DNA from: Rhizobium sp. ICMP 5592 | Lineage (GTDB): Bacteria; Pseudomonadota; Alphaproteobacteria; Rhizobiales; Rhizobiaceae | NCBI RefSeq assembly: GCF_009498525.1 | Contig: NZ_QSNT01000002.1 | Coordinates: forward strand, 1-64,000 | Length of the DNA: 64,000 nt | Direction: 5' to 3' | In this document: piece after piece, positions 14,421 through 27,536 of the stretch | How the letters are laid out: every line of letters starts with the position of its first letter | Position numbering within the stretch: position 1 is the stretch's first letter | Notes under the pieces: generated by a model | What the model saw: only the letters and a program-made list of their open reading frames with translations | Told to the model about the DNA's origin: nothing | Databases searched by the model: none | Position numbers and translations under genes: made by a program

Positions 14421-15587
14421 TCAGTCTGCGGTGATTATGAATTCGGCGCGTATCTTCTCGGTGCTGCTGCCGATCGTTGGAGCGGCGAGATCGCTTTTGT
14501 GGCGCTGGCCATCTACTCGAATCGGACTTGCCGTCGTGCGAACGGAAACGCCATCGCTGCGGGTCACGGTTTGCAGCATGTCGAGTTGGCGGAAGGCGGC
14601 GGTTTCGAGCAGTTGCGGCCAATGCAGCACTTCCGTTGCCCAGATATCGACGGGCTCGAGTATTGCGAGCCATTCCTTCACTGTCTTCTGATGCAGGCGG
14701 CTGGCGATCAGGTTCTTGATCTCGTCTCGTAGAGAAAAGGCTTCGTCCGGTGTGTAGTCGACCAGTGCGGGCAGGTCGAGGAGGGGCGCCAGCTTCGGCA
14801 GCGGCGTCATGGCGAGCGCCAGCCAGCCGTCTGCGCAGGGATAGACGCCGTAGGGCGCTGAGAGATAGGCGTGGGCATTCCGTACGGCGGATTTTTGCGG
14901 CAGGCGGCCACCGTCGTTCAGATGTGTGGTCAGCACCTCGAACTGGAAATCGATCATCGCTTCGAGCAAGCTGGTTTCGACATGAACGCCGTGGCCGGTG
15001 ATGCCGCGCCTAACGAGGCCGGCGAGAATGCCCTGGACGATGAGATTACCGGCCAGCATGTCTGCGACCGCAAGGCCGAAGGGCACGGGGCCGTCATCGG
15101 CCTCGCCGTTCAGCCACATGGCGCCGGAGCGGGCCTGTGCGAGCAGGTCTTGTCCTGGAAAATGCCGCCATTCATTGTCCGGACCGTATCCAGTGATGCT
15201 GCCATAGACGATGCGCGGATTGATGGCAGTGACCGAGGCATAGTCGAGGCCGAGGCGTTCGATGACCCCTGGGCGAAAATTCTGGATGATGACGTCGGCC
15301 TTCTCGATCAGCGCCCTGAGGTCCAGCAGATCGTCTTCGTCTTTCATGTTGATGGCGAAGCTTTCCTTGCCGCGATTGATGGCGTGGAACAGGGTCGAGT
15401 CGCCGCCGATCTCGGTATCGCTGAGATAGAGCCGGCGACAGAGATCGCCACCATCGGGCCGCTCGATCTTGATGACGCGCGCGCCAAGATCGCCGAGCCG
15501 TAATGCTGCCATCGGGCCGGCCAGAAACTGGCTCATATCGAGCACTGTTATGCCGGCAAGCAGGCCCTCATTGTTTCCCTCGGTCAT
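14421..15587 (-). CDS. CaiB/BaiF family III CoA-transferase
   Basis: 388-residue class III CoA-transferase, which moves CoA between carboxylic acids through an aspartyl-CoA anhydride. The N-terminal LDMSQFLAGPMAALRLGDLGA and VIKIERPDGGD are typical. Asp176 in GLAVADMLAG corresponds to the catalytic aspartate (Asp169 of formyl-CoA transferase). The length fits a single-subunit member. It begins one nucleotide after the stop of the upstream MaoC gene, so the two are translationally coupled, and it is the last gene of the leftward operon with the amidohydrolase. Substrate is unknown; a carboxylate from the sugar-acid pathway is the contextual inference. Confidence 0.88.
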   Translation of the reverse strand: MTEGNNEGLLAGITVLDMSQFLAGPMAALRLGDLGARVIKIERPDGGDLCRRLYLSDTEIGGDSTLFHAINRGKESFAINMKDEDDLLDLRALIEKADVIIQNFRPGVIERLGLDYASVTAINPRIVYGSITGYGPDNEWRHFPGQDLLAQARSGAMWLNGEADDGPVPFGLAVADMLAGNLIVQGILAGLVRRGITGHGVHVETSLLEAMIDFQFEVLTTHLNDGGRLPQKSAVRNAHAYLSAPYGVYPCADGWLALAMTPLPKLAPLLDLPALVDYTPDEAFSLRDEIKNLIASRLHQKTVKEWLAILEPVDIWATEVLHWPQLLETAAFRQLDMLQTVTRSDGVSVRTTASPIRVDGQRHKSDLAAPTIGSSTEKIRAEFIITAD

Positions 15588-15588
15588 T

Positions 15589-16134
15589 TCAGCCCTTCAA
15601 TTCCGGAGCGTCGGCGGGGCGGCCGTCCCTGTAGCGCACGGTCTGGATATGCTCGCAGTAAAGCACCAGCTCGCCGTCGCCCTTGAAGACCTCGTAGGAC
15701 GAGCGGATCAGGCCGAGATCTTTATATTTCGGCTGCTTATCGAGGTTGGTGCGGATGGTGTAGATCGTGTCGCCGATGAAGGTCGGCTTGATGAAACGCA
15801 GCCTGTCATAGCCATAGGAAAAGGCGTTGATGCAGTTGGTGGCGACGAGACCGAGCCCGGCCGAAAAGACGAAGGCGCCGGCCACCAGCCGCTTGCCAAA
15901 CAGGCCTTCCGTCTCGGCAAAGATCTGGTCGCTGACATAGGGGTGCATGTCGAGCACCAGCGCGTTGAACTGTTGGGATTCACCTTCCGAGATCGTGCGC
16001 CGCAGCGAACGAATCTTGTGGCCGATCTCGAAGTCTTGGTAGAACCAGTTTTCCGAATTCCAGACGGGAATATCGGCGTGGCCGGCCGGCATGGTCTTCG
16101 GATGGGTGCTGGAAATACCGACGGTGGCAGTCAT
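15589..16134 (-). CDS. MaoC-fold (hotdog) dehydratase-like protein, catalytic His not conserved
   Basis: About 181 residues, single hotdog domain of the MaoC family, whose active members hydrate enoyl-CoA. The hydratase motif (GD-x-NP-x-H-x-D in active enzymes) reads LDMHPYVSD: the aspartate is present but the histidine is valine. The following VAHG motif reads VAGA. A paralogue at 25.1 kb keeps the full motif, and both share [11 protein letters not shown] followed by a basic residue and P. This copy may therefore be a non-catalytic partner or catalyse something else. The start is uncertain: the ATG at 16134 or a TTG at 16149, neither with a strong ribosome-binding site. Confidence 0.8.
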
Positions 16135-16157
16135 GGCAGGGGCTTTCAACGGGGCGC

Positions 16158-16994
16158 TTAGAGAGACCAGAGGCGCTTGGCATTCAGCCGATAGAGCCGG
16201 TCGCGTTCGTCGGCGCTTGCCCCTTGCATCAGCGCATGCGTGGCGGCGACCCAGGTGGAGAGGCCGCCGCCGAGCGTGCAGACCGGCCAGTCGCTGCCCC
16301 AGATGACGCGATCCCAGCCGAAGCTTGCGATCGAATGCTCGACGAAGGGCTGCAGCCTGTCGACGGTCCAGCTGTCGGGATCGGCATAGGCGATGATGCC
16401 GGAAATCTTGACGACGACGTTCGGCCGTTTGGCAATCTCAGTTATTCCCGAGGACCAGACCTCGCTGAGCTGTTTCTTGATGGCGGGCACGCCGCAATGG
16501 TCGAGAATAAACCGGACATCGGGATTGAGGTCGACGAGCGCGATTGCCTTGGAAATCTGATGCGGCAGCACGCAGAGATCGAAGGTGAGGCGGGTGCCGG
16601 CAATCCGCTTCAGGTTTTCGCGGAAGAGCACACCTTCGGAGACATCATCCGGCACGACATGCAGCACGCGACGGAAGCCCTTGACGAAGGGATCGGCGAG
16701 CACCCGTTCCAGATAGGCGGGAAAGTCGGCATCCTCTGGACGGCAGGCGGCGATGGCACCACGGATCAGGCTGCCGGGCTTTTGGCTCAAGCCTTTGACA
16801 TAGTCCGTTTCCCGCTCGATATCGCTCCCGGCGACATCGACTTCCATATGCAGCGTGTCGGTGATCCCGCAGCGATGCGCCTCGCGGGCATAGTCTTCGT
16901 AGAGGCTGTCGCGGTTGAGCGCGCCGGCCCCTTCCAGCCAGGGATATGCGAGCTTTTCGCGGTCGACGATGTGCAGGTGGCTATCGAAAAGCAT
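16158..16994 (-). CDS. Amidohydrolase 2-family lactonase-like hydrolase (COG3618 type)
   Basis: 278-residue TIM-barrel metal-dependent hydrolase. Metal and catalytic motifs are FDSHLHI (His6, His8), the histidine in LPHQ, LDHCG, and the C-terminal aspartate in WGSDWPV. This is the family of L-fucono- and L-rhamnono-lactonases and of 4-sulfomuconolactonase. GGGAGG lies about 6 nt before the ATG at 16994. It heads the leftward operon with MaoC and CoA-transferase, next to the IclR regulator. Opposite a sugar importer, mutarotase and acid dehydratase, an aldonolactonase role is the best guess. Confidence 0.82.
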
Positions 16995-17057: not shown

Positions 17058-17852
17058 TTATAGCTCGGCGCTATCCACCGTCCCGACCACGGTTTCGGAG
17101 ATCTGCTTTGCCGCGTCCCGCACATAGTCGATGACCTGATCATAGGTCGGCGCATGGGGATTGACCGGCTGGATATAGGGGCAGGTGAGTGCCGCCAGCG
17201 CATTGCCGTCCATGGCGAGGATCGGCGCGGAGATATTGCGTACGCCATTGGTCTGCAGGCTGTCCATGGTCTCGAAGCCCTTGTCGCGGATCACCCGCAG
17301 CCTTGCATCGAGATCGGCCGGCGGTCGGTCGTCCTCCTGGTCCTGCTGGCGGCGCTGCTCGTTGATCATCATCTGGCGCTGCTTCTCGTCGCGGAAGGCG
17401 AGGAGGATATGGCCGGAGCCGGTGTTGAACAGGTTGATCTGGGCGCCGACACGGATCGAAATGCCCCAATAGGTCGGCGAATCCTGCTGGGCGATGACCA
17501 CGACCGAGCCGCGGTCGAAAATCGCCAGATGACAGGCCTGTTCGGCGCGGTTGGAGAATTCGCGCATCAGAGGCGTGGCGAACGACACGAGCCGGCGCAC
17601 CGGCGCGTGGTAATGCGCCAGGCCGAAGAGCTTCAGCGTCAGGTAGAAGCGGTCGCCATCCTGCCGCTGCACATAGCCGCGCCGCACCAGGCGGTCGAGC
17701 ATGCGATAGAATTCGTTCGGGCTCTTGCCGAGCGCCTTGGCGATTTCCGCCTGCGTCAGCCCGCCGTCGATACGCGCCAGCAGCTCCAGAATATCGAGGC
17801 CCTTGTCCAGCGCCGGTGCGCGATATCGATCGCTGTCGTCTTCAATGGTCAC
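17058..17852 (-). CDS. IclR-family transcriptional regulator
   Basis: 264-residue IclR regulator. A winged helix-turn-helix occupies the N-terminus (about 12-75, LDKGLDILELLARIDGG, AEIAKALGKSPNEFYRMLDR). The C-terminal GAF-like effector domain covers about 90-255. IclR proteins typically sense aromatic acids, keto-acids or sugar acids such as 2-keto-3-deoxygluconate. The GTG at 17852 is preferred because GAGGAGAGG lies 6 nt upstream; the ATG at 17876 has none. It sits between the two arms of the sugar-acid/CoA locus and is their likely shared regulator. Confidence 0.85.
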   Translation of the reverse strand: MTIEDDSDRYRAPALDKGLDILELLARIDGGLTQAEIAKALGKSPNEFYRMLDRLVRRGYVQRQDGDRFYLTLKLFGLAHYHAPVRRLVSFATPLMREFSNRAEQACHLAIFDRGSVVVIAQQDSPTYWGISIRVGAQINLFNTGSGHILLAFRDEKQRQMMINEQRRQQDQEDDRPPADLDARLRVIRDKGFETMDSLQTNGVRNISAPILAMDGNALAALTCPYIQPVNPHAPTYDQVIDYVRDAAKQISETVVGTVDSAEL

Positions 17853-17883
17853 GGCTGGCCTCTCCTCAAAGAACATGATTCAT

Positions 17884-18032: not shown

Positions 18033-19349
18033 ATGAGGAATTTGAAGGCCGGTCTTGCCGCCGGCATATTGGCATTGCTTGCGAGTTCCGCGGCTTTTGC
18101 CGCCGACCTGCCCGGCAAGTTCCCGGGCGTGACGATCGATGCCAAGCTGATCGGCGGCCAGCAATATGAGCCGCTCTATGCGCGCATTACCGAGTGGGAG
18201 AAGGAGACCGGCGCCAAGGTCAACATCCTCTCCAAGAAGAACCATTTCGAGCTGGACAAGGAAATCAAGTCGGACATGGCGTCGGGCGATATCTCCTGGT
18301 GCGTCGGTTCCAACCACTCGTCCTTTGCGCCGCAATATCCCGACCTTTACACCGATCTCGGCAAGCTGCTGCCGAAGGAAGAGATCGCCCAGTTCGTCGA
18401 TTCGACGATCGGGGCATCCACCATCGACGGCCGGCTGATCATGCTGCCGCGCGCGCAGTTCGACGTTTCGGCGCTCTACTACCAGAAGAGCCTCTATAGC
18501 GACGAAGCCAAGAAGACGGCGTTCAAGGCCAAGTATGGCTACGATCTGGCGCCGCCGAAGACCTGGAAGGAAGTGTCGGACCAGGCGATCTTCTTTGCCA
18601 ATCCGCCGAACTTCTTCGGTACGCAGTTCCCCGGCAAGGAAGAGGCGATCAACGGTCGCTTCTTTGAAATGCTGGTCGCGGAAGGCGGCGAATATCTCGA
18701 CAAGGACGGCAAGCCAGCCTTCAATTCCGAAGCCGGCGTGCGTGCGCTCGACTGGTTCGTTAACATGTACAAGGCGAAGGCCGTTCCGGCCGGCACGACC
18801 AACTATCTCTGGGACGACCTCGGTGCCGGCTTTGCCTCGGGTACCGTCGCGCTCGACCTCGACTGGCCGGGCTGGGCCACCTATTTCAACGATCCGAAAT
18901 CCTCCAAGGTTGCCGGCAATGTCGGCGTCGTCGTGCAGCCCGTCGGCTCGTCCGGCAAGCACACCGGCTGGTCCGGCCATCACGGTTTCTCGGTGACCGA
19001 AGCCTGCAAGAACAAGGATGCCGCCGCCTCGCTCGTCTGGTTCCTGACCAACGACGATTCGCAGAAGCTCGAAGCCGCCAACGGCACGCTGCCGACCCGC
19101 AAGGCAGTCTGGGAGTGGGATATCCAGCAGGCTGCGTCCGACCCCTACAAGAAGGAAGTGCTGAGCACCTTCCAGGAATCGATGAAATACGCCTTCCCGG
19201 TTCCGCGCACGCCGCAATGGATCGAGATTTCCAATGTCGTCTATCCTGAGCTTCAGGCCGCTATCCTCGGCGACAAGACCTCCAAGGAAGCGCTCGACAC
19301 CGCCGCGCAGAAAGCCACCGACGTTCTGAAGGACGCCGGTTCGCTCTGA
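18033..19349 (+). CDS. Sugar ABC transporter periplasmic substrate-binding protein (family 1)
   Basis: 438-residue solute-binding protein of the CUT1/MalE class. A Sec signal peptide is visible at residues 1-23 (positive MRNLK, hydrophobic core, cleavage near AFA-A). The mature protein has the expected two-lobe pattern, with W/Y-rich segments such as WKEVSDQAIFFA and DLDWPGWATYF lining a sugar site. GGGAGGA precedes the ATG. It opens the rightward operon with two permeases and an ATPase. The ligand is unknown; downstream enzymes suggest a deoxysugar or sugar acid. Confidence 0.88.
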   Translation: MRNLKAGLAAGILALLASSAAFAADLPGKFPGVTIDAKLIGGQQYEPLYARITEWEKETGAKVNILSKKNHFELDKEIKSDMASGDISWCVGSNHSSFAPQYPDLYTDLGKLLPKEEIAQFVDSTIGASTIDGRLIMLPRAQFDVSALYYQKSLYSDEAKKTAFKAKYGYDLAPPKTWKEVSDQAIFFANPPNFFGTQFPGKEEAINGRFFEMLVAEGGEYLDKDGKPAFNSEAGVRALDWFVNMYKAKAVPAGTTNYLWDDLGAGFASGTVALDLDWPGWATYFNDPKSSKVAGNVGVVVQPVGSSGKHTGWSGHHGFSVTEACKNKDAAASLVWFLTNDDSQKLEAANGTLPTRKAVWEWDIQQAASDPYKKEVLSTFQESMKYAFPVPRTPQWIEISNVVYPELQAAILGDKTSKEALDTAAQKATDVLKDAGSL

Positions 19350-19520: not shown

Positions 19521-20423
19521 GTGCAAACCATGTTCAAGAAAATATCCCCACCGGTCCTGCTGCTTCTTCCAGCGATCATCGTGCTTGTGGCGGTGGTGCT
19601 GTTTCCGCTGCTTCTGTCCTTCTATTCCAGCTTCACGCCGTTTCGTCTGACGCGGCCGTCGACGCTCTTCACCTTCATCGGTCTGCGCAATTACATCCGT
19701 ATTCTGACCGATCCCGTTTTCCTGGCGGCGTTCGTGCGAACCGTCGTGCTTTTGACCATCGCGCTCAATCTGGAAATGCTGCTTGGTCTCGGCCTGGCGC
19801 TGCTGGTCAACAAGGCGACCCACGGCAAGCGCATCCTGCGCACGCTGATGATGTTCCCGATGATGTTTTCGCCGGTGCTTGTCGGCTTCCAGTTCAAATT
19901 CATGTTCAACGACAATGTCGGCATCATCAACAATGCCCTGCAATCCCTGGGTATCACCAGCAATGCCATTCCGTGGCTGATCGATGGCAATCTGGCGCTG
20001 TTTTCGATCATCGTTGCGGAAGTTTGGTCGTCGACCGCTGTCTTCGCTATCCTCATTCTCGCAGGCCTTTTCGCCATGCCGCAGGAGCCGGTGGAGGCTG
20101 CGAAAGTCGATGGCTGCACGGGCTGGCAGACCTTCCGCTACGTCACCTGGCCATTCCTGATGCCCTTTGCCTTCATCGCCATGACTATCCGTTCGCTCGA
20201 CGTCGCCCGCGCCTATGACATCGTCAAGATCATGACCGATGGCGGCCCGGCCCGGCGCACGGAGCTGATCTGGACGCTGGTCGGGCGCACGGCCTATGCC
20301 GACGCGCAAATGGGCCTCGCCAACGCCATGGCCTATGTCTCGATCATCCTGTCGATCGCCTTCACAGTGTATTTTTTCCGTAAGCTGGCGCTTGCCCGCA
20401 CCCAGATCGGAGCGGAGTGGTAA
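19521..20423 (+). CDS. Sugar ABC transporter permease (MalF/UgpA type)
   Basis: 300-residue permease with six predicted transmembrane helices. The first is VLLLLPAIIVLVAVVLFPLL. The ABC-contact EAA loop is EPVEAAKVDGCTGWQTF near residue 195. The start is a GTG at 19521 with GAGGA upstream, or the ATG at 19530. It follows the binding protein after a hairpin and overlaps the next permease by a few bases. It forms the channel with the second permease. Confidence 0.88.
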   Translation: MQTMFKKISPPVLLLLPAIIVLVAVVLFPLLLSFYSSFTPFRLTRPSTLFTFIGLRNYIRILTDPVFLAAFVRTVVLLTIALNLEMLLGLGLALLVNKATHGKRILRTLMMFPMMFSPVLVGFQFKFMFNDNVGIINNALQSLGITSNAIPWLIDGNLALFSIIVAEVWSSTAVFAILILAGLFAMPQEPVEAAKVDGCTGWQTFRYVTWPFLMPFAFIAMTIRSLDVARAYDIVKIMTDGGPARRTELIWTLVGRTAYADAQMGLANAMAYVSIILSIAFTVYFFRKLALARTQIGAEW

Positions 20424-20425
20424 TC

Positions 20426-21292
20426 ATGGATCGCAACGCCGAACAACGCCTGCGCCGCCGCATCGGAAAAGTCGCCTATCTCATCGGCCTTTTCATCGCG
20501 ATGCTCATCATCTGCCTGCCGGGCTTCTGGATCATCCTGAGCTCGCTGCGACCGACGGTCGAGATCATGGCGAAGCCGCCGGTCTGGATCCCGCAGGAAC
20601 TTTCGCTGGAAGCCTATCGCGCCATGTTCAGCGGCGCGGGGCAGGGCGGTATTCCCGTCTGGGACTATTTTCGCAATTCGCTGGTGATTTCCATCACCTC
20701 CACCGCCATCGCATTGATCATCGGCATGTCCGGTGGCTATGCCTTTGCCCGCTTCCGCTTCACCGGCAAGTCGATGGTGTTCCTCGGCCTGATGCTGACG
20801 CGCTCCGTGCCGGGTGTCGCGCTCTCGCTGCCGCTGTTCATGGTCTATGCGCGGCTCGGGATCATCGACACGCATTTCGGCCTGATCCTCACCTATGTTG
20901 CGCTCAACGTGCCCTTCACCATCTGGTTGATCGACGGCTTCTTCCGGCAGGTGCCGAAGGATCTGGCCGAGGCCGCGCAGATCGACGGCTGCACGCGCTG
21001 GCAGGCCTTCTGGCAGGTGGAGTTTCCGCTTGCCGGTCCCGGCATCGCATCCGCCGGCATCTTCGCCTTCCTCACCTGCTGGAACGAATATGCGCTGGCC
21101 TCGCAGCTGACGCGCTCGGTCAATTCCAAGACGCTGCCGGTCGGCCTGCTCGATTACACGGCCGAATTCACCATTGACTGGCGCGGCATGTGCGCGCTTG
21201 CCGTGGTGATGATCGTTCCGGCGCTCGCACTCACATTCATCATTCAGAAGCATCTGGTGTCGGGTCTGACATTCGGTGCGGTCAAAGGTTGA
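20426..21292 (+). CDS. Sugar ABC transporter permease (MalG/UgpE type)
   Basis: 288-residue second permease with six helices, EAA loop DLAEAAQIDGCTRWQAF, and C-terminal [10 protein letters not shown] as in MalG homologues. The ATG at 20426 is favoured, with GGAG about 10 nt upstream; a GTG at 20417 inside the previous gene is possible. It is tightly packed between the first permease and the ATPase, whose ATG lies 4 nt downstream of this stop. Confidence 0.88.
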   Translation: MDRNAEQRLRRRIGKVAYLIGLFIAMLIICLPGFWIILSSLRPTVEIMAKPPVWIPQELSLEAYRAMFSGAGQGGIPVWDYFRNSLVISITSTAIALIIGMSGGYAFARFRFTGKSMVFLGLMLTRSVPGVALSLPLFMVYARLGIIDTHFGLILTYVALNVPFTIWLIDGFFRQVPKDLAEAAQIDGCTRWQAFWQVEFPLAGPGIASAGIFAFLTCWNEYALASQLTRSVNSKTLPVGLLDYTAEFTIDWRGMCALAVVMIVPALALTFIIQKHLVSGLTFGAVKG

Positions 21293-21296
21293 TCCC

Positions 21297-22394
21297 ATGG
21301 CTCAGGTCTCGCTCAAAAAACTCGTCAAGCGCTACGGTGCCCTGGAAATCGTCCATGGAATCGATCTCGATATCAAGGACAAGGAGTTTATCGCTCTGGT
21401 CGGGCCGTCCGGCTGCGGCAAGTCGACGACGCTGCGGATGATCGCCGGCCTCGAGAATATCTCCGACGGCACGATCGAGATCGGCGATACCGTCGTCAAC
21501 GACCTGCCGCCGCGCGACCGCAACATCTCCATGGTATTCCAGTCCTATGCGCTCTATCCGCATATGACGGTGCGCGAGAACATGGGTTTCTCGCTGAAGA
21601 TCGCCAAGCAGCCGCAGACGGAGATCGACCAGCGGGTCAATGAAGCCGCCGCCATCCTCGGCCTGGAGACGCTGATGGATCGCCGCCCGGCACAGCTTTC
21701 CGGCGGCCAGCGGCAGCGCGTCGCCATGGGTCGCGCGATCGTCCGCCAGCCGGAAGTCTTCCTCTTCGACGAGCCGCTGTCAAACCTCGATGCCAAGCTC
21801 CGGACGCAGATGCGTACCGAGATCAAGAAGCTGCATGCCAAGGTGCAGTCGACGGTGATCTACGTCACCCACGATCAGGTGGAAGCGATGACGCTGGCTG
21901 ACCGCATCGTCATCATGCGCGACGGCTATATCGAGCAGGTCGGCACGCCGGATGAGGTATTCAAGAAGCCAGCCACCCGCTTCGTCGCCGGCTTCATCGG
22001 CTCGCCGCCGATGAATATTGAGGAGGCGCTGGTGTCTGCCGGCGCGCTGGTGTTCAAGAATGGTGACCGGCTGCCGCTGCCGGGCCAGTTCACGGATCGG
22101 GTCAAGGATGGCGACAAAGTCGCTTTCGGCCTGCGACCGGACGATATTTTTCCCACTGGCCATGGCTTGCATTCCGGTGTTGAAGCGGCGGTGCATGAGG
22201 TGACGCTGCCGGTCGCCATCACCGAGCCGCTTGGTAACGAAACGCTCGTCTTCGTCGAATTCGGCGGCCGCGAATGGGTGTCGCGGATGCTCAATCCGCG
22301 CGGCCTGAAAAGCGGCGAACAGCTGAAGATGAGCTTCGATCTCTCCCAGGCACATCTCTTCTCCATCGAAACCGGCAAGAGCCTGGCGATCTGA
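21297..22394 (+). CDS. Sugar ABC transporter ATP-binding protein (MalK/UgpC type)
   Basis: 365-residue CUT1 ATPase: Walker [10 protein letters not shown] (36-44), signature LSGGQRQR, Walker [13 protein letters not shown], switch histidine in [10 protein letters not shown], then a C-terminal regulatory OB-fold domain (about 240-365). It is roughly 65% similar by eye to the polyol ATPase at 332-1330 and carries the longer regulatory domain. It completes the importer whose other parts lie immediately upstream and leads into the enzyme genes of the same operon. Confidence 0.9.
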   Translation: MAQVSLKKLVKRYGALEIVHGIDLDIKDKEFIALVGPSGCGKSTTLRMIAGLENISDGTIEIGDTVVNDLPPRDRNISMVFQSYALYPHMTVRENMGFSLKIAKQPQTEIDQRVNEAAAILGLETLMDRRPAQLSGGQRQRVAMGRAIVRQPEVFLFDEPLSNLDAKLRTQMRTEIKKLHAKVQSTVIYVTHDQVEAMTLADRIVIMRDGYIEQVGTPDEVFKKPATRFVAGFIGSPPMNIEEALVSAGALVFKNGDRLPLPGQFTDRVKDGDKVAFGLRPDDIFPTGHGLHSGVEAAVHEVTLPVAITEPLGNETLVFVEFGGREWVSRMLNPRGLKSGEQLKMSFDLSQAHLFSIETGKSLAI

Positions 22395-22410: not shown

Positions 22411-23523
22411 ATGGCCCGCATCGAGAAAATTGAACTGCGCATGGTCGACCTGCCGCCGAAGGTGAAGCGGACGGATGCGATCCAGAGCTTCGTCAGCCAG
22501 GAAACGCCAATCGTCACCGTCACCGATTCTGATGGTGCGGTTGGTACTGGCTACAGCTACACGATCGGTACCGGCGGTTCGTCGGTGATGCGGCTGTTGT
22601 CCGATCATCTGGCGCCGCTCTTGATCGGCGAGGATGCCGATTGCATCGAGGCGATCTGGCACAAGATGGAATTCGCCACGCACGCGACGACCATCGGCGC
22701 GATCACGGCTCTGGCGCTTGCCGCCGTCGATACGGCGCTGTGGGATCTGCGCGCCAGGAAGCAGAACTTGCCGCTCTGGAAACTCGCAGGCGGTGCCAGG
22801 GGTCGTTGCCCGCTCTACACGACCGAGGGCGGCTGGCTGCACATCGAGAAGGAAGCGCTGGTCGAGGATGCTCTGCAGGCGAAGGCCAAGGGTTTTTCAG
22901 GTTCGAAGGTGAAGATCGGCAAGCCGCATGGCTCGGAGGATTATGATCGGCTCTCGGCCATGCGTCTGGCGCTTGGCGCTGGTTTCGAGATCATGACGGA
23001 CTGCAATCAGGGCTTTACCGTCGACGAGGCGATCCGCCGTGCTGCGCGGCTGAAGGAACTCGATCTCGCCTGGATCGAGGAGCCGCTGCCGGCCGACGAT
23101 CTCGATGGCCATATCCGCCTGACGCGCTCGACACCGACGCCGATTGCAGTCGGGGAATCCATCTATTCGATCCGGCATTTCCGCGAATATATGCAGAAGG
23201 GCGCCTGCTCGATCGTCCAGGTCGATGTTGCCCGCATCGGCGGCATCACGCCCTGGCTGAAGGTGGCGCATGCGGCGGAAGCTTTCGACATTCCTGTCTG
23301 CCCGCATTTCCTGATGGAGCTGCATGTCAGCCTCGTCTGCGCGGTCCCGAACGGAAGATATGTCGAATATATCCCGCAGCTCGACGATCTCACCACCAAG
23401 GGCATGGACATCGTTGACGGCAAGGCACTTGCGCCCTCCGAGCCCGGCATCGGCATTGCCTGGGATTGGGAGGCGGTGAAGGCGCGCTCGATCGGCGACT
23501 TCACCAGAGAGATTCACGGCTGA
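22411..23523 (+). CDS. Mandelate racemase/muconate-lactonizing family (enolase superfamily) sugar-acid dehydratase-like enzyme
   Basis: 370-residue enolase-superfamily enzyme with a capping domain (1-125) and TIM barrel. The complete mandelate-racemase active site is present: bases Lys166 and Lys168 (SKVKIG), metal ligands Asp197, Glu223 and Glu249, and the Asp272-His299 dyad. All are two residues beyond mandelate racemase numbering. Most such proteins in sugar operons dehydrate aldonates (fuconate, rhamnonate, gluconate) to 2-keto-3-deoxy acids. Specificity cannot be read directly. Mutarotase, lactonase-like and SDR neighbours point to a 6-deoxyhexonate. Confidence 0.87.
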   Translation: MARIEKIELRMVDLPPKVKRTDAIQSFVSQETPIVTVTDSDGAVGTGYSYTIGTGGSSVMRLLSDHLAPLLIGEDADCIEAIWHKMEFATHATTIGAITALALAAVDTALWDLRARKQNLPLWKLAGGARGRCPLYTTEGGWLHIEKEALVEDALQAKAKGFSGSKVKIGKPHGSEDYDRLSAMRLALGAGFEIMTDCNQGFTVDEAIRRAARLKELDLAWIEEPLPADDLDGHIRLTRSTPTPIAVGESIYSIRHFREYMQKGACSIVQVDVARIGGITPWLKVAHAAEAFDIPVCPHFLMELHVSLVCAVPNGRYVEYIPQLDDLTTKGMDIVDGKALAPSEPGIGIAWDWEAVKARSIGDFTREIHG

Positions 23524-23537
23524 GAGAGGACGCGGTC

Positions 23538-23867
23538 ATGCAGCGGATGGGGATGGTGATCGGCCTGGAGCCGGCTAAGGTTACGGAATACAAGGCGCTT
23601 CATGCGGCCGTCTGGCCCGAGATCCTGGCGCTGATCTCCGACTGCAACATCACCAACTATTCGATCTTCCTGAAGGAACCGGAAAACCTGCTCTTCGGCT
23701 ATTGGGAATATGTCGGCACAGATTTCGAGGCCGATATGGCCAAGATGGCGGCGAGCCCGAAGAACCAGGAATGGTGGTCTGTGTGCATCCCCTGCCAGAA
23801 GCCGTTCGAGACCCGCAAGCAGGGTGAGTGGTGGGCGATGATGGAGGAGGTGTTTCATCATGAGTGA
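23538..23867 (+). CDS. L-rhamnose mutarotase (RhaM) family protein
   Basis: 109 residues, alpha/beta-barrel dimer family (DUF718/RhaM), which interconverts anomers of L-rhamnose and, in some homologues, L-fucose. The catalytic histidine is His22 (KALHAAVWPEIL), the position known in E. coli RhaM. YSIF, LFGYWEY and the paired WW near residue 76 are family features. GAGAGGA lies 7 nt before the ATG. Its place between a dehydratase and a dehydrogenase is the main hint that the imported substrate is a free 6-deoxyhexose. No rhamnose isomerase or rhamnulose kinase is nearby, so a non-phosphorylating route is implied. Confidence 0.85.
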   Translation: MQRMGMVIGLEPAKVTEYKALHAAVWPEILALISDCNITNYSIFLKEPENLLFGYWEYVGTDFEADMAKMAASPKNQEWWSVCIPCQKPFETRKQGEWWAMMEEVFHHE

Positions 23868-24016: not shown

Positions 24017-24044
24017 GTTCGTGGCCGTCTGCGGAGCTGAATTC

Positions 24045-25118
24045 ATGACCTTCGATCCCCAATCCCTCCTTCAATGGTGGCCCAAGCCCAGTACCCCACG
24101 TCCCATCGTGATCTTCGGTGCCGGCAGTATCGTGGCTGATGCCCATTTGCCGGCTTACAAAAAGGGCGGCTTTCCGGTCGTGGGTCTTTACGATCCGAAT
24201 GCTGAAAAGGCGCAGGCCCTCGCGGATCAATGGGGCATCCGCGCCTTCACTACCGAGGCCGAGGCGCTGGCCGTCGAGGGGGCGATCTTCGATCTCGCGA
24301 CGCCACCGGCGGCGCATGCGCCAATCCTGGCGAAGTTGCCGCGCGGCTCCTTCGCACTGATCCAGAAACCGATGGGCAGCGATCTCGCCGGGGCGACGGA
24401 GATTCTGCAGATCTGCCGCGAGCGTGACATCAAGGCGGCAGTCAATTTCCAGCTGCGCTTCGCGCCGATGATGCTGGCGCTCCATGATGCGATCGACAAG
24501 GGCTATCTCGGCGAGGTCGTCGACGTCGATGCCTGGCTGGCACTGGCGACGCCCTGGGGGCTCTGGCCGTTCCTGAAAGGCCTACCACGTATCGAGATCG
24601 CCATGCACTCGATCCACTATCTCGATTTCATTCGCGGGCTGCTCGGCAATCCCGAGGGCGTGCATGCGAAGACCATCGGCCATCCGAACCATGAGATGGC
24701 GCAGACGCGGACCGCGGCGATCCTCGATTATGGCGACAGGGTGCGCTGCGTTCTCTCGGTCAACCACGACCATGATTTCGGCCGCAAGTTCCAGGCTTGC
24801 GAGTTCCGCATCTCGGCCACCAAGGGTGCGGCCTATATCAAGCTCGGCGTCAATCTCGACTATCCGCGTGGCGAGCCGGACGAGCTGTGGATTAAGCCCG
24901 ATGGCGGCAGTGACTGGGTCGAGGTGAAGCTCGAAGGCGCCTGGTTCCCCGATGCTTTTGTCAACCGCATGGCCAATCTGCAGCGTTTCGCATCGGGCGA
25001 GGACAAGGTGCTGGTCGGCTCCGTCGAGGATGCCTGGCAGACCATGGCGCTGGTCGAGGCCGCCTATCAATCGAGTGCCGCACCGGCGACGCCGATTGCC
25101 GAACTTCCGAAGGTGTGA
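24045..25118 (+). CDS. Gfo/Idh/MocA-family oxidoreductase
   Basis: 357-residue NAD(P)-dependent sugar dehydrogenase-like protein. The Rossmann motif is VIFGAGSIVADAHLP (about 24-38). The usual EKP catalytic motif reads QKPMG, keeping the lysine. The C-terminal alpha/beta domain has MHSIHYLD with the likely proton-transfer histidine. GGAG lies 9 nt before the ATG at 24045. In this operon it could oxidise the sugar at C1 to a lactone for the amidohydrolase, but other positions are possible. The glutamate-to-glutamine change in EKP is worth noting. Confidence 0.82.
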   Translation: MTFDPQSLLQWWPKPSTPRPIVIFGAGSIVADAHLPAYKKGGFPVVGLYDPNAEKAQALADQWGIRAFTTEAEALAVEGAIFDLATPPAAHAPILAKLPRGSFALIQKPMGSDLAGATEILQICRERDIKAAVNFQLRFAPMMLALHDAIDKGYLGEVVDVDAWLALATPWGLWPFLKGLPRIEIAMHSIHYLDFIRGLLGNPEGVHAKTIGHPNHEMAQTRTAAILDYGDRVRCVLSVNHDHDFGRKFQACEFRISATKGAAYIKLGVNLDYPRGEPDELWIKPDGGSDWVEVKLEGAWFPDAFVNRMANLQRFASGEDKVLVGSVEDAWQTMALVEAAYQSSAAPATPIAELPKV

Positions 25119-25121
25119 GTG

Positions 25122-25574
25122 ATGGCCGAACGGACGATCCATTTCGAAGACTATGAACTCGGCCATGTCAGGCTGACCACGGGACGGACGATTACCGAGA
25201 CCGACTTCGTCGTCCATGCCGGCCATACCGGCGATTTCTTTCCGCACCATATGGATGCGGAATTTGCCAAGACCCTGCCAGGCGGCCAGCGCATCGCGCA
25301 TGGCACGATGATCTTTGCGATTGGCGTCGGGCTGACGGCCTCGCTGATCAATCCCGTCGCCTTCTCCTATGGCTACGATCGGCTGCGCTTCATCCGCCCG
25401 GTGCATATCGGCGACACGATCCGTACGCGGGTGACGATTTCCGCCAAGGAGGACGATTCGAAGCGCCCGGCATCGGGTCGAGTGGTCGAGCGTTGCGAGG
25501 TGCTGAACCAGCGTGATGAGGTCGTGCTTGCTGCCGACCATATCCTGATCGTCGAACGCAAGGCGGCAGGCTGA
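25122..25574 (+). CDS. MaoC-fold hydratase/dehydratase with intact catalytic motif
   Basis: 150-residue single-hotdog MaoC protein. The hydratase motif is intact, GDFFPHHMD with Asp and His at the correct spacing, followed by RIAHGTMIF. Such enzymes add water to trans-2-enoyl-CoA or dehydrate beta-hydroxyacyl thioesters. It shares [13 protein letters not shown] with the degenerate paralogue at 15.6 kb on the opposite arm. It starts 3 nt after the oxidoreductase stop (ATG 25122 or GTG 25119), and its stop overlaps the next gene, so expression is coupled. Confidence 0.85.
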
Positions 25575-26704
25575 TGGTGAAGCTTAAGGGAATGACCTGG
25601 TCGCATCCACGCGGCTACGATCCGATGATAGCCTGCTCGAAGCTCTGGCTGGAAAAGACCGGTGTGGAGATCGTCTGGGAAAAGCGGTCGCTGCAGGATT
25701 TCGAGACCTTTCCGGTCGAAGAGCTTGCCGCCGCCTATGACCTGATCGTCATCGACCATCCGCATGTCGGCCAGATCACCCGCGAGAATTGCCTGCTGCC
25801 GCTCGACGATGCCGAGCATGCCGAGGAACTTGCCGTCATTGCCGCCGGTACGGTCGGCCGGTCCTATCCGAGCTATCATTGGCAGGGGCGGCAATGGGCA
25901 TTCCCGATCGACGCGGCAACGCAAGTGCAGGCTTACCGACCGGATCGGCTAAGCGGGCCGATTACCGATCTCGCCGAAATCGTCGGGCTGGCCGCGAAGG
26001 GTCGGGCGATCCTGCCGATGCGCTCACCGCATGTGCTGATGACCTTCTTCACGCTGGCCGCTCATCTCGGCACGCCCTGTGGCATCGAAGGGCCGGAGTT
26101 CATTACCGGGGCTGATGGCGAAATCGTGCTCGACTGGATGGCACGGATCGTCGGTGGCATGGATATCAGCTGCTACGACATGGACCCCATCGCCGTTTTC
26201 GATCTGATGGGCGAGATGGATAGCCCCTATGACGTTACGCCCTTCATCTACGGCTATGTCAGCTATTCCTTCGCCGGATTCCGACCAACGCGCATTGCCT
26301 TTGCCGATATGCCTGTGATCGACGGTCGTGCACCGAACGGATCGGCGCTCGGCGGTACGGGCATTGCCGTTTCGGCCGCGACGCGGGCTCCGGAGGAGGC
26401 CAAAGCTTTTGCGCGCTGGATCGCCGGCGGGCCGGTGCAGGCGACAACCTATGCCGCGAGCAACGGCCAAGCGGGCCATTCGCATGCCTGGGTCAGCGAT
26501 GCTGTCAACGCGCCGGCGCTCGATTTCTACCGCAATACGCGGGCCACGCTGGAGGGTTCCTACGTGCGGCCGCGTCATGATGGCTACATGGCGTTTCAAA
26601 GTGAGGCTTCGGAGATGATTACCCATGGACTGCGCACCGCCGAGCGGCATACAGTCCTTATCGACAAACTCAACCGGCGCTTCGCGCAATCGTTTGAAGG
26701 CTAG
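25574..26704 (+). CDS. Solute-binding-protein-like protein without signal peptide
   Basis: 376 residues that resemble family 1 sugar-binding proteins: MTWSHPRGYDPMIACSKLWL, then a TGVEIVWEKRSLQDF strand, YDLIVIDHPHVG, and a C-terminal RAPEEAKAFARWI segment. No signal peptide, lipobox or transmembrane segment is present. The N-terminus [11 protein letters not shown] runs straight into the first beta-strand. The start overlaps the MaoC stop, so translation is coupled to a cytoplasmic enzyme. It is therefore likely cytoplasmic and not the importer's receptor, which is at 18.0 kb. A ligand-sensing or substrate-carrier role is conceivable; nothing is established. Confidence 0.75.
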   Translation: MVKLKGMTWSHPRGYDPMIACSKLWLEKTGVEIVWEKRSLQDFETFPVEELAAAYDLIVIDHPHVGQITRENCLLPLDDAEHAEELAVIAAGTVGRSYPSYHWQGRQWAFPIDAATQVQAYRPDRLSGPITDLAEIVGLAAKGRAILPMRSPHVLMTFFTLAAHLGTPCGIEGPEFITGADGEIVLDWMARIVGGMDISCYDMDPIAVFDLMGEMDSPYDVTPFIYGYVSYSFAGFRPTRIAFADMPVIDGRAPNGSALGGTGIAVSAATRAPEEAKAFARWIAGGPVQATTYAASNGQAGHSHAWVSDAVNAPALDFYRNTRATLEGSYVRPRHDGYMAFQSEASEMITHGLRTAERHTVLIDKLNRRFAQSFEG

Positions 26705-26732: not shown

Positions 26733-26804
26733 GCTTGTTCTTATCCGGAGATGGCCGCGGGCCTCTTCAGATCGGAAACAAGCCATGGAGGAAGGATCAG
26801 GATT

Positions 26805-27536
26805 ATGGGTCACGGATTGGAAGGCAAGAAGGTCGTCATCACGGCGGCGGGTCAGGGCATCGGCCGGGCGACGGCGGAGCGCTTCATCTCGCTCGGCGCG
26901 CATGTCTATGCCACCGATATCAACGAGCAGACGCTTTCGACGCTGGAAGGCGCCAGCACGCATGTGCTTGATGTGCTCGATAGTGCCGTGGTCAAGGCTT
27001 ACGCCAGCGAGATCGGCCCGATCGACGTGCTTTTCAACTGCGCCGGTTTCGTGCACGCCGGCACCATCCTCGACTGCGAAGAGAAAGACTGGGACTTTTC
27101 CTTCAACCTCAACGCCAAGGCGATGTACACGACCTGCCGCACTTTTCTGCCGGGTATGCTGGAAAAGGGCAAGGGTTCGATCGTCAACATGGCGTCTGTC
27201 GCCTCCAGCGTGAAGGGCGTGCCGAACCGTTTTGCCTATTGCGCCTCCAAGGCCGCCGTCATCGGGCTTACCAAGTCGATCGCCGCTGATTTCGTCTCCA
27301 AGGGCATCCGCGCCAATGCCATTTGCCCCGGCACGGTCGACAGCCCCTCGCTGCATGATCGCCTGCGCGCCACTGGCGATTACGAAAAGGCAATGGCCGA
27401 CTTCATCGGCCGCCAGCCGATGGGCCGCATCGCCGACGCCAAGGAGATCGCGGCCTTGGTAACCTATCTCGCCGGCGACGAGGCGGGCTTCACCACCGGC
27501 CAGATCCACGTCATCGACGGCGGCTGGACGGCCTGA
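26805..27536 (+). CDS. Short-chain dehydrogenase, BDH2/2-keto-3-deoxy-L-fuconate dehydrogenase-like
   Basis: 243-residue SDR. The cofactor motif is TAAGQGIG (13-20), an alanine variant of TGxxxGIG. NCAG is at 78-81 and the catalytic pair Tyr145/Lys149 is in YCASK. Long stretches (GFVHAGTILDCEEKDWDFSF, VASSVKGVPNR, GTVDSPSLHDR) closely match the BDH2-like subgroup, which includes bacterial 2-keto-3-deoxy-L-fuconate 4-dehydrogenase. With a dehydratase and mutarotase upstream, oxidation of a 2-keto-3-deoxy-6-deoxyhexonate is a reasonable inference. GAGGAAGGA precedes the ATG. It is the last gene of the operon. Confidence 0.85.
   Translation: MGHGLEGKKVVITAAGQGIGRATAERFISLGAHVYATDINEQTLSTLEGASTHVLDVLDSAVVKAYASEIGPIDVLFNCAGFVHAGTILDCEEKDWDFSFNLNAKAMYTTCRTFLPGMLEKGKGSIVNMASVASSVKGVPNRFAYCASKAAVIGLTKSIAADFVSKGIRANAICPGTVDSPSLHDRLRATGDYEKAMADFIGRQPMGRIADAKEIAALVTYLAGDEAGFTTGQIHVIDGGWTA

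Follow-up and report, generated by a model that had tools for sequence, protein, structure and literature searches.

Within the window, by which we mean the whole stretch of 64,000 nucleotides analysed here, lies a gene for a 376-residue protein (cSBP) that, judged by its structural model, is a complete solute-binding-protein (SBP) fold of family 1. The protein belongs to a family that is predicted to be cytoplasmic and whose genes are found mostly beside genes for class III CoA-transferases of the CaiB type. We prefer, tentatively and at rather less than even confidence, to see cSBP as an enzyme of the cytoplasm, or at least as a co-catalytic protein, which would handle a sugar-derived acid at the step of CaiB. 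The fold, the family-wide absence of a signal, the linkage to CaiB, the placement of an Asp in CaiB and the near-invariant residues of cSBP were all computed directly.

The cSBP gene and its locus

The genes of the locus are collected in Table 1. The ATG of cSBP overlaps the stop codon of the preceding MaoC gene (TGATG), as the original prediction had stated. In frame with cSBP, 18 codons extend upstream to a TGA at 25517, and this stretch contains no ATG, GTG or TTG, the sole near-start being a CTG at 25571. An extra start therefore cannot give cSBP a signal peptide, which settles the question of alternative starts that had been raised at the outset.

Table 1. Features of the window around cSBP
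Feature	Position	Strand	Basis and remarks
CaiB, class III CoA-transferase, divergent arm	14421..15587	-	PF02515 E 8e-95; Asp176
MaoC2, second MaoC-type hydratase	15589..16149	-	Pfam; precedes CaiB-cSBP in many relatives
Amidohydrolase 2	16158..16994	-	Weakly L-fuconolactonase-like, 92 bits against a curated cut-off of 400
IclR-type regulator between both arms	17058..17876	-	Pfam
Exported importer SBP with signal peptide	18033..19349	+	Pfam, hydropathy
ABC importer permease	19521..20423	+	ORF, matches annotated sugar permeases of relatives
ABC importer permease	20417..21292	+	ORF, matches annotated permeases of relatives
ABC importer ATPase	21276..22394	+	ORF, UgpC-type in relatives
Enolase-superfamily sugar-acid dehydratase or cycloisomerase	22411..23523	+	Pfam, NCBIfam and solved-structure comparison
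L-rhamnose-mutarotase-like	23466..23867	+	ORF, so annotated in relatives; true start may be further in
Gfo/Idh/MocA oxidoreductase	24021..25118	+	PF01408
MaoC1, MaoC-type hydratase	25119..25574	+	PF01575 E 1e-21; stop overlaps cSBP start
cSBP, cytoplasmic SBP-fold protein, 376 aa	25574..26704	+	Pfam, model, structure alignment, signal test
Short-chain dehydrogenase	26751..27536	+	Pfam

Fold of the protein

Pfam places cSBP in SBP_bac_8 (PF13416; E 4e-11, 43.5 bits against a curated cut-off of 27) and in SBP_bac_1 (PF01547; E 5e-7, 30.5 bits against a curated cut-off of 26), and no NCBIfam family matched it at E <= 0.1. An AlphaFold2 model built from the window protein aligned with 33 relatives (34 rows) has a mean pLDDT of 95.1 and a pTM of 0.92. 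This model aligns with TMBP (1eu8) over 366 residues at Z 37.5 (rmsd 2.7, 17% identity) and with LpqY (7ape) over 366 residues at Z 37.4, and as rows whose Z values lay less than 1 apart were counted as tied, the two are equal matches. Both also appear in a profile search of PDB sequences (E 1e-19 for 1eu8 and 2e-18 for LpqY). The 1eu8 alignment covers residues 1-376 of the model with no leftover part and describes a complete two-lobe SBP fold. A different fold, which the original prediction had named as an outcome that would overturn it, is ruled out by the confidence of the model together with this full-length alignment. The 50 rows listed by Foldseek and by VIA-align consist of sugar-binding proteins and MBP-tagged constructs, and the lack of an enzyme among them excludes nothing.

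Distribution of the family

Matches to cSBP at E <= 0.001 were found in 36 of 100 genomes, the source genome and weak matches included. Of 397 genomes in the order, a profile search matched 68: 53 strongly, with a best E of at most 1e-70, and 15 with weak matches only (E about 1e-10 to 1e-15). Across the phylum 18 of 398 genomes matched, as did 145 plasmid records, which include ones from Azospirillum and Streptomyces. The best 80 loci of a genome scan show that Variovorax and Caballeronia also carry cSBP. From 158 loci with a strong match on stretches of at least 6 kb we took 73 representatives at 70% identity, the majority of them from the window's own order. Annotated records label these relatives as 'extracellular' or as ABC-transporter binding proteins.

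One match (G002:C6:90205-90315, locus L037) is limited to 37 C-terminal residues, 81% identical, and is perhaps a lost copy. The weak matches in genomes G076 and G098 lie in frames of at least 600 aa, that is, in longer proteins with the SBP domain on the C-terminal side, and were set aside as a separate group. Two long proteins (L149:1674-3635 and L150:2003-3823, both on the minus strand; 606-653 aa) have a C-terminal SBP domain recognized by Pfam as SBP_bac_1 and SBP_bac_8. Their N-terminal part resembles a DNA-binding domain by eye, Pfam naming the SBP part only, and they are possible SBP-based regulators; an ORF that looks permease-like by eye adjoins the L150 protein.

Absence of an export signal

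The original prediction of a family 1 binding-protein-like sequence without signal peptide agrees with the open reading frame, with Pfam and with hydropathy. The most hydrophobic 12-residue window near the N-terminus scores 0.53 in cSBP versus 2.32 in the SBP at 18033, the proper binding protein with signal peptide that had likewise been predicted at 18.0 kb. With a threshold of 1.8 or more for the hydrophobic N-terminal window, a crude hydropathy measure rather than a trained predictor, none of the 73 representatives has a signal-like N-terminus, even with all in-frame starts allowed and two Streptomyces rows included. The same test finds one in 84 of the 87 transport-SBP genes of the 158 loci, which were counted with no deduplication. 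A signal peptide gained through an upstream start was ruled out as an explanation, both by the lack of an upstream start codon and by the relatives. The export or lipoprotein signal expected of an ABC-importer substrate-binding protein is thus absent from the whole family by the hydropathy test, and the family is predicted from its sequences to be cytoplasmic. A transport role is contradicted by this predicted location.

Linkage to CaiB

A survey of homologues next to CaiB genes had been suggested together with the original prediction, and it revealed a strong link. In 48 of the 73 representatives a same-strand CaiB lies within 200 bp of cSBP, and 13 others have one within 10 kb; none was seen in the remaining 12. 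In two of these 12, L209 and L201, the contig carries a CaiB-family gene at a distance of 9.9 and 11.6 kb, respectively. Four (L041, L047, L196 and L224) have the window-type gene order, in which CaiB lies 9.8-10.2 kb from cSBP in 16 relatives, and the stretches covered for these four end just short of that distance. Another (L029) is on a contig of 6.8 kb. For L036, L068, L122, L204 and L227 there was no CaiB in the stretch covered, which for L227 reaches only 3.7 kb on one side, and a genome search for L036, L204 and L227 located CaiB-family genes on other contigs or, for L204, about 2.9 Mb away.

CaiB precedes cSBP in 27 representatives and follows it in 21. On the cSBP tree, in which some deep rows are long branches of unsure placement, the CaiB-before label needs 10 changes and the CaiB-after label 7, with the starred branches forcing at least 5 each. 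As CaiB has switched sides several times on the tree, the adjacency has been kept or re-formed. Sinorhizobium meliloti is among the species that carry both genes. The two genes overlap in four annotated records, and no cSBP-CaiB fusion was noticed where cSBP starts were mapped. CaiB-family matches number only 7 in the 6.7 Mb of the source genome, from which we estimate, at about one gene per kb, a chance adjacency of roughly 0.2% per locus.

In the 100-genome set, a window-type cSBP (at least 43% identity) occurs in 26 genomes, and every one of these holds the CaiB at E <= 1e-90; in one of them, a draft, the cSBP gene is divided between two contigs. The other 10 of the 36 genomes, whose cSBP matches are all distant or weak, gave no CaiB at this threshold. 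G003, a genome that is 82% complete, carries a CaiB (65% identical to that of the window) but no cSBP. Physical linkage contributes part of this co-occurrence. Distances between loci correlate with those of cSBP for CaiB (r 0.69, 61 loci), but more strongly for Gfo/Idh (0.80, 29 loci) and IclR (0.78, 40 loci), and we therefore rejected co-phylogeny as proof of a link specific to CaiB.

The other neighbours, named through similarity to a panel of the window's genes and annotated genes, are variable. The carriers may be ABC systems of two types, TRAP, MFS or TctA, and ABC-importer genes are present in most of the 73 loci; the regulators are of the IclR, LacI or GntR type and the hydratase is MaoC or an enoyl-CoA hydratase. 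The steady pairing with cognate permeases that would be expected of an importer component is therefore not seen, as the carriers change and the importer of the window has an SBP of its own.

Two arrangements stand apart. In a Microvirga locus (L122:7940-11173) two mannonate-dehydratase-like genes precede a deep cSBP, which shares 4 bases with the second of them, and no CaiB was seen in the 10 kb on each side; a second role for the family is therefore possible. In L157 and L158 a tandem pair of CaiB genes comes after cSBP, as if two CoA-transferases were needed.

The CaiB of the window aligns with formyl-CoA transferases. At its position 176 all 117 sequences compared, the window's and those of 116 adjacent partners without deduplication, have Asp. 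Going by the alignment with formyl-CoA transferase, whose catalytic Asp presumably corresponds to it, Asp176 would sit at the catalytic position.

Conserved residues and the putative ligand site

An alignment of 74 rows (73 relatives, with a mean identity of 40%, and the window) has 34 columns that are at least 93% conserved. W9, R13, L40, F43, D56, D61, P63, G95, D113, G298, Q299, W306, R332 and P333 are present in all 74 rows, and H11 and H62 in 72. A near-invariant W-x-H-x-R motif occupies the first loop, at most about 15 residues from the start nearest the match.

In the 28 loci that also encode a type 1 transport SBP, cSBP has 38 conserved columns, 16 of them polar or aromatic (D, E, H, K, R, Q, N, W or Y), at 47% mean identity, versus 17 and 2 at 44% for the transport SBP, a control that probably mixes several ligands and so has a lowered count. 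The corresponding numbers of conserved and polar or aromatic columns are 64 and 24 for CaiB (47%), 94 and 33 for the ABC ATPase (54%) and 61 and 21 for Gfo/Idh (54%), and 13 and 3 for IclR (43%), 10 and 2 for the permeases (32%) and 5 and 3 for LacI (30%). The short-chain dehydrogenases, which are enzymes but probably of mixed subfamilies, have 16 and 4 (35%). In this respect cSBP resembles the single-function enzymes of the loci and differs from both the transport SBP and the dehydrogenases. Because the dehydrogenase set has only 4 such columns, the column count alone does not mark an enzyme, and a fixed ligand alone could likewise freeze the conserved residues of cSBP.

In the alignment with 1eu8, D61 and R332 of cSBP fall on an Asp and an Arg of TMBP, which we take to be D70 and R364 of the trehalose site. 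A115 and T262 fall on two other TMBP positions, presumably the sugar contacts D123 and W295. These contacts are supported by structure titles that name the mutants D118A, R356A, R49A and W287A of a trehalose-binding homologue. The conserved residues of cSBP would accordingly line the cleft, and two sugar-contact positions of trehalose-binding proteins appear, from the sequence alignment and these contacts, to have been lost.

Pathway context

By their gene content the clusters look like oxidative sugar routes. They include a mutarotase or aldose 1-epimerase, dehydrogenases, a lactonase-like amidohydrolase or SMP-30 protein, and an enolase-type dehydratase. For the window's gene of this last type (22411-23523) the closest solved structure is 3,6-anhydro-L-galactonate cycloisomerase (E 3e-73), ahead of named dehydratases. 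The clusters of two annotated relatives include an L-fuconate dehydratase gene, and one of the two also has a gene resembling 2,4-didehydro-3-deoxy-L-rhamnonate hydrolase, although its 431.6 bits fall below the cut-off of 500. These genes suggest a pathway that handles 6-deoxyhexoses, the CoA steps being unaccounted for, and because the hint does not explain those steps we claim no substrate. Elsewhere in the source genome, outside the window cluster (L238:8624-11166, contig C12 at about 294.6-297.2 kb), a second CaiB, 65% identical to the window's, immediately precedes an L-fuconate dehydratase gene (E 1e-168 against the solved enzyme), and this CaiB may belong to the same pathway.

Possible roles of cSBP

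We envisage that an SBP of the trehalose type, its two-lobe fold intact, lost its signal peptide and became the cytoplasmic cSBP. The protein would close on a sugar-derived, probably anionic, intermediate and would act at the CaiB step, making or consuming the acid that CaiB converts to a CoA ester, with MaoC or enoyl-CoA hydratases and dehydrogenases working around that step. We place cSBP there because CaiB and the invariant residues are what mostly stays constant. That the ligand is an acid, that cSBP works jointly with CaiB and that it is itself catalytic is what we infer.

The original prediction left the choice between a ligand sensor, a substrate carrier and an enzyme built on this fold; the sensor is now disfavoured, and the enzyme and a substrate-presenting subunit both stand and are not separable here. 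As a non-catalytic subunit, cSBP would capture the acid and dock on CaiB as an SBP docks on its permease, the two forming a two-component CoA-transferase. The adjacency of CaiB in either order, the gene overlaps and the complete SBP fold to which nothing has been added all suit such a partner, yet CaiB is missing from the neighbourhood of some deep cSBPs, an acid that is hydrophilic can do without a carrier, and no characterised class III CoA-transferase is known to have or need an SBP-fold partner or subunit. We consider this reading possible but on the unlikely side; the last two points are why the enzyme is rated above it, which is a matter of judgement. A cytoplasmic sensor that reports the intermediate to a regulator or an enzyme is made plausible by the long L149 and L150 proteins, where an SBP domain follows a DNA-binding-like part, and IclR distances track those of cSBP well. 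However, SgrR-like one-component regulators have a DNA-binding domain joined to the SBP domain whereas cSBP has no output domain, and since the regulators nearby are swapped while CaiB is mostly retained, a free-standing sensor is improbable.

Two other explanations were considered. Pfam groups it with SBPs and ABC-importer genes are common in its loci, as would be the case for an ordinary importer SBP whose start or signal had been misread or which was exported by a non-classical route. Against this, the signal-like N-terminus is missing from every representative, the importer of the window already owns an SBP, and the family also occurs beside TRAP, TctA and MFS carriers, which to our knowledge do not use an SBP of this type, so that we regard this explanation as very improbable. 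A functionless relic retained through operon linkage could be suggested by the match of only 37 residues in G002, but it is scarcely credible: orthologues are under purifying selection, a 93% identical one, for example, giving 76 synonymous versus 28 non-synonymous codon differences, and the residues invariant in all rows at a mean identity of 40% already contradict it.

Relation to known systems and significance

cSBP has its full-length fold in common with TMBP and LpqY, and differs from both in the lack of a signal peptide, in sequence (17-18% identity) and in the W-x-H-x-R motif of its first loop. With respect to TMBP it keeps the Asp and Arg and has Ala and Thr at what are presumably D123 and W295. 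SgrR is a longer protein with a C-terminal SBP domain; proteins of its type, like L149 and L150, have an SBP domain plus an extra N-terminal part, whereas cSBP is a bare SBP fold. With regard to class III CoA-transferases (CaiB/BaiF, formyl-CoA transferase), the gene linked to cSBP is a member with Asp at the catalytic position. SBP-fold proteins that have turned into enzymes are documented, for example cyclohexadienyl dehydratase (PMC7683729). That enzyme is close to amino-acid-binding proteins, whereas cSBP is built on a sugar-binding scaffold, lacks a signal and is a putative enzyme. The literature search, with most subscription journals outside it, returned no recognised paper on a cytoplasmic SBP with CaiB, and no sugar route through sugar-acid CoA esters of this kind was found.

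The annotation of these proteins as 'extracellular' or as ABC-transporter components conflicts with a family that, by sequence, is cytoplasmic and mostly CoA-transferase-linked. With still more reserve than for the role of cSBP itself, we suggest that the family could represent a new class of cytoplasmic enzyme on the sugar-binding (maltose-binding-like) SBP fold, paired with a class III CoA-transferase in oxidative sugar-acid-CoA routes. If catalytic, cSBP would be a natural sugar receptor turned enzyme, with exported relatives in the same clusters for comparison, and it would point to sugar routes through CoA esters, a chemistry that can be tested gene by gene.
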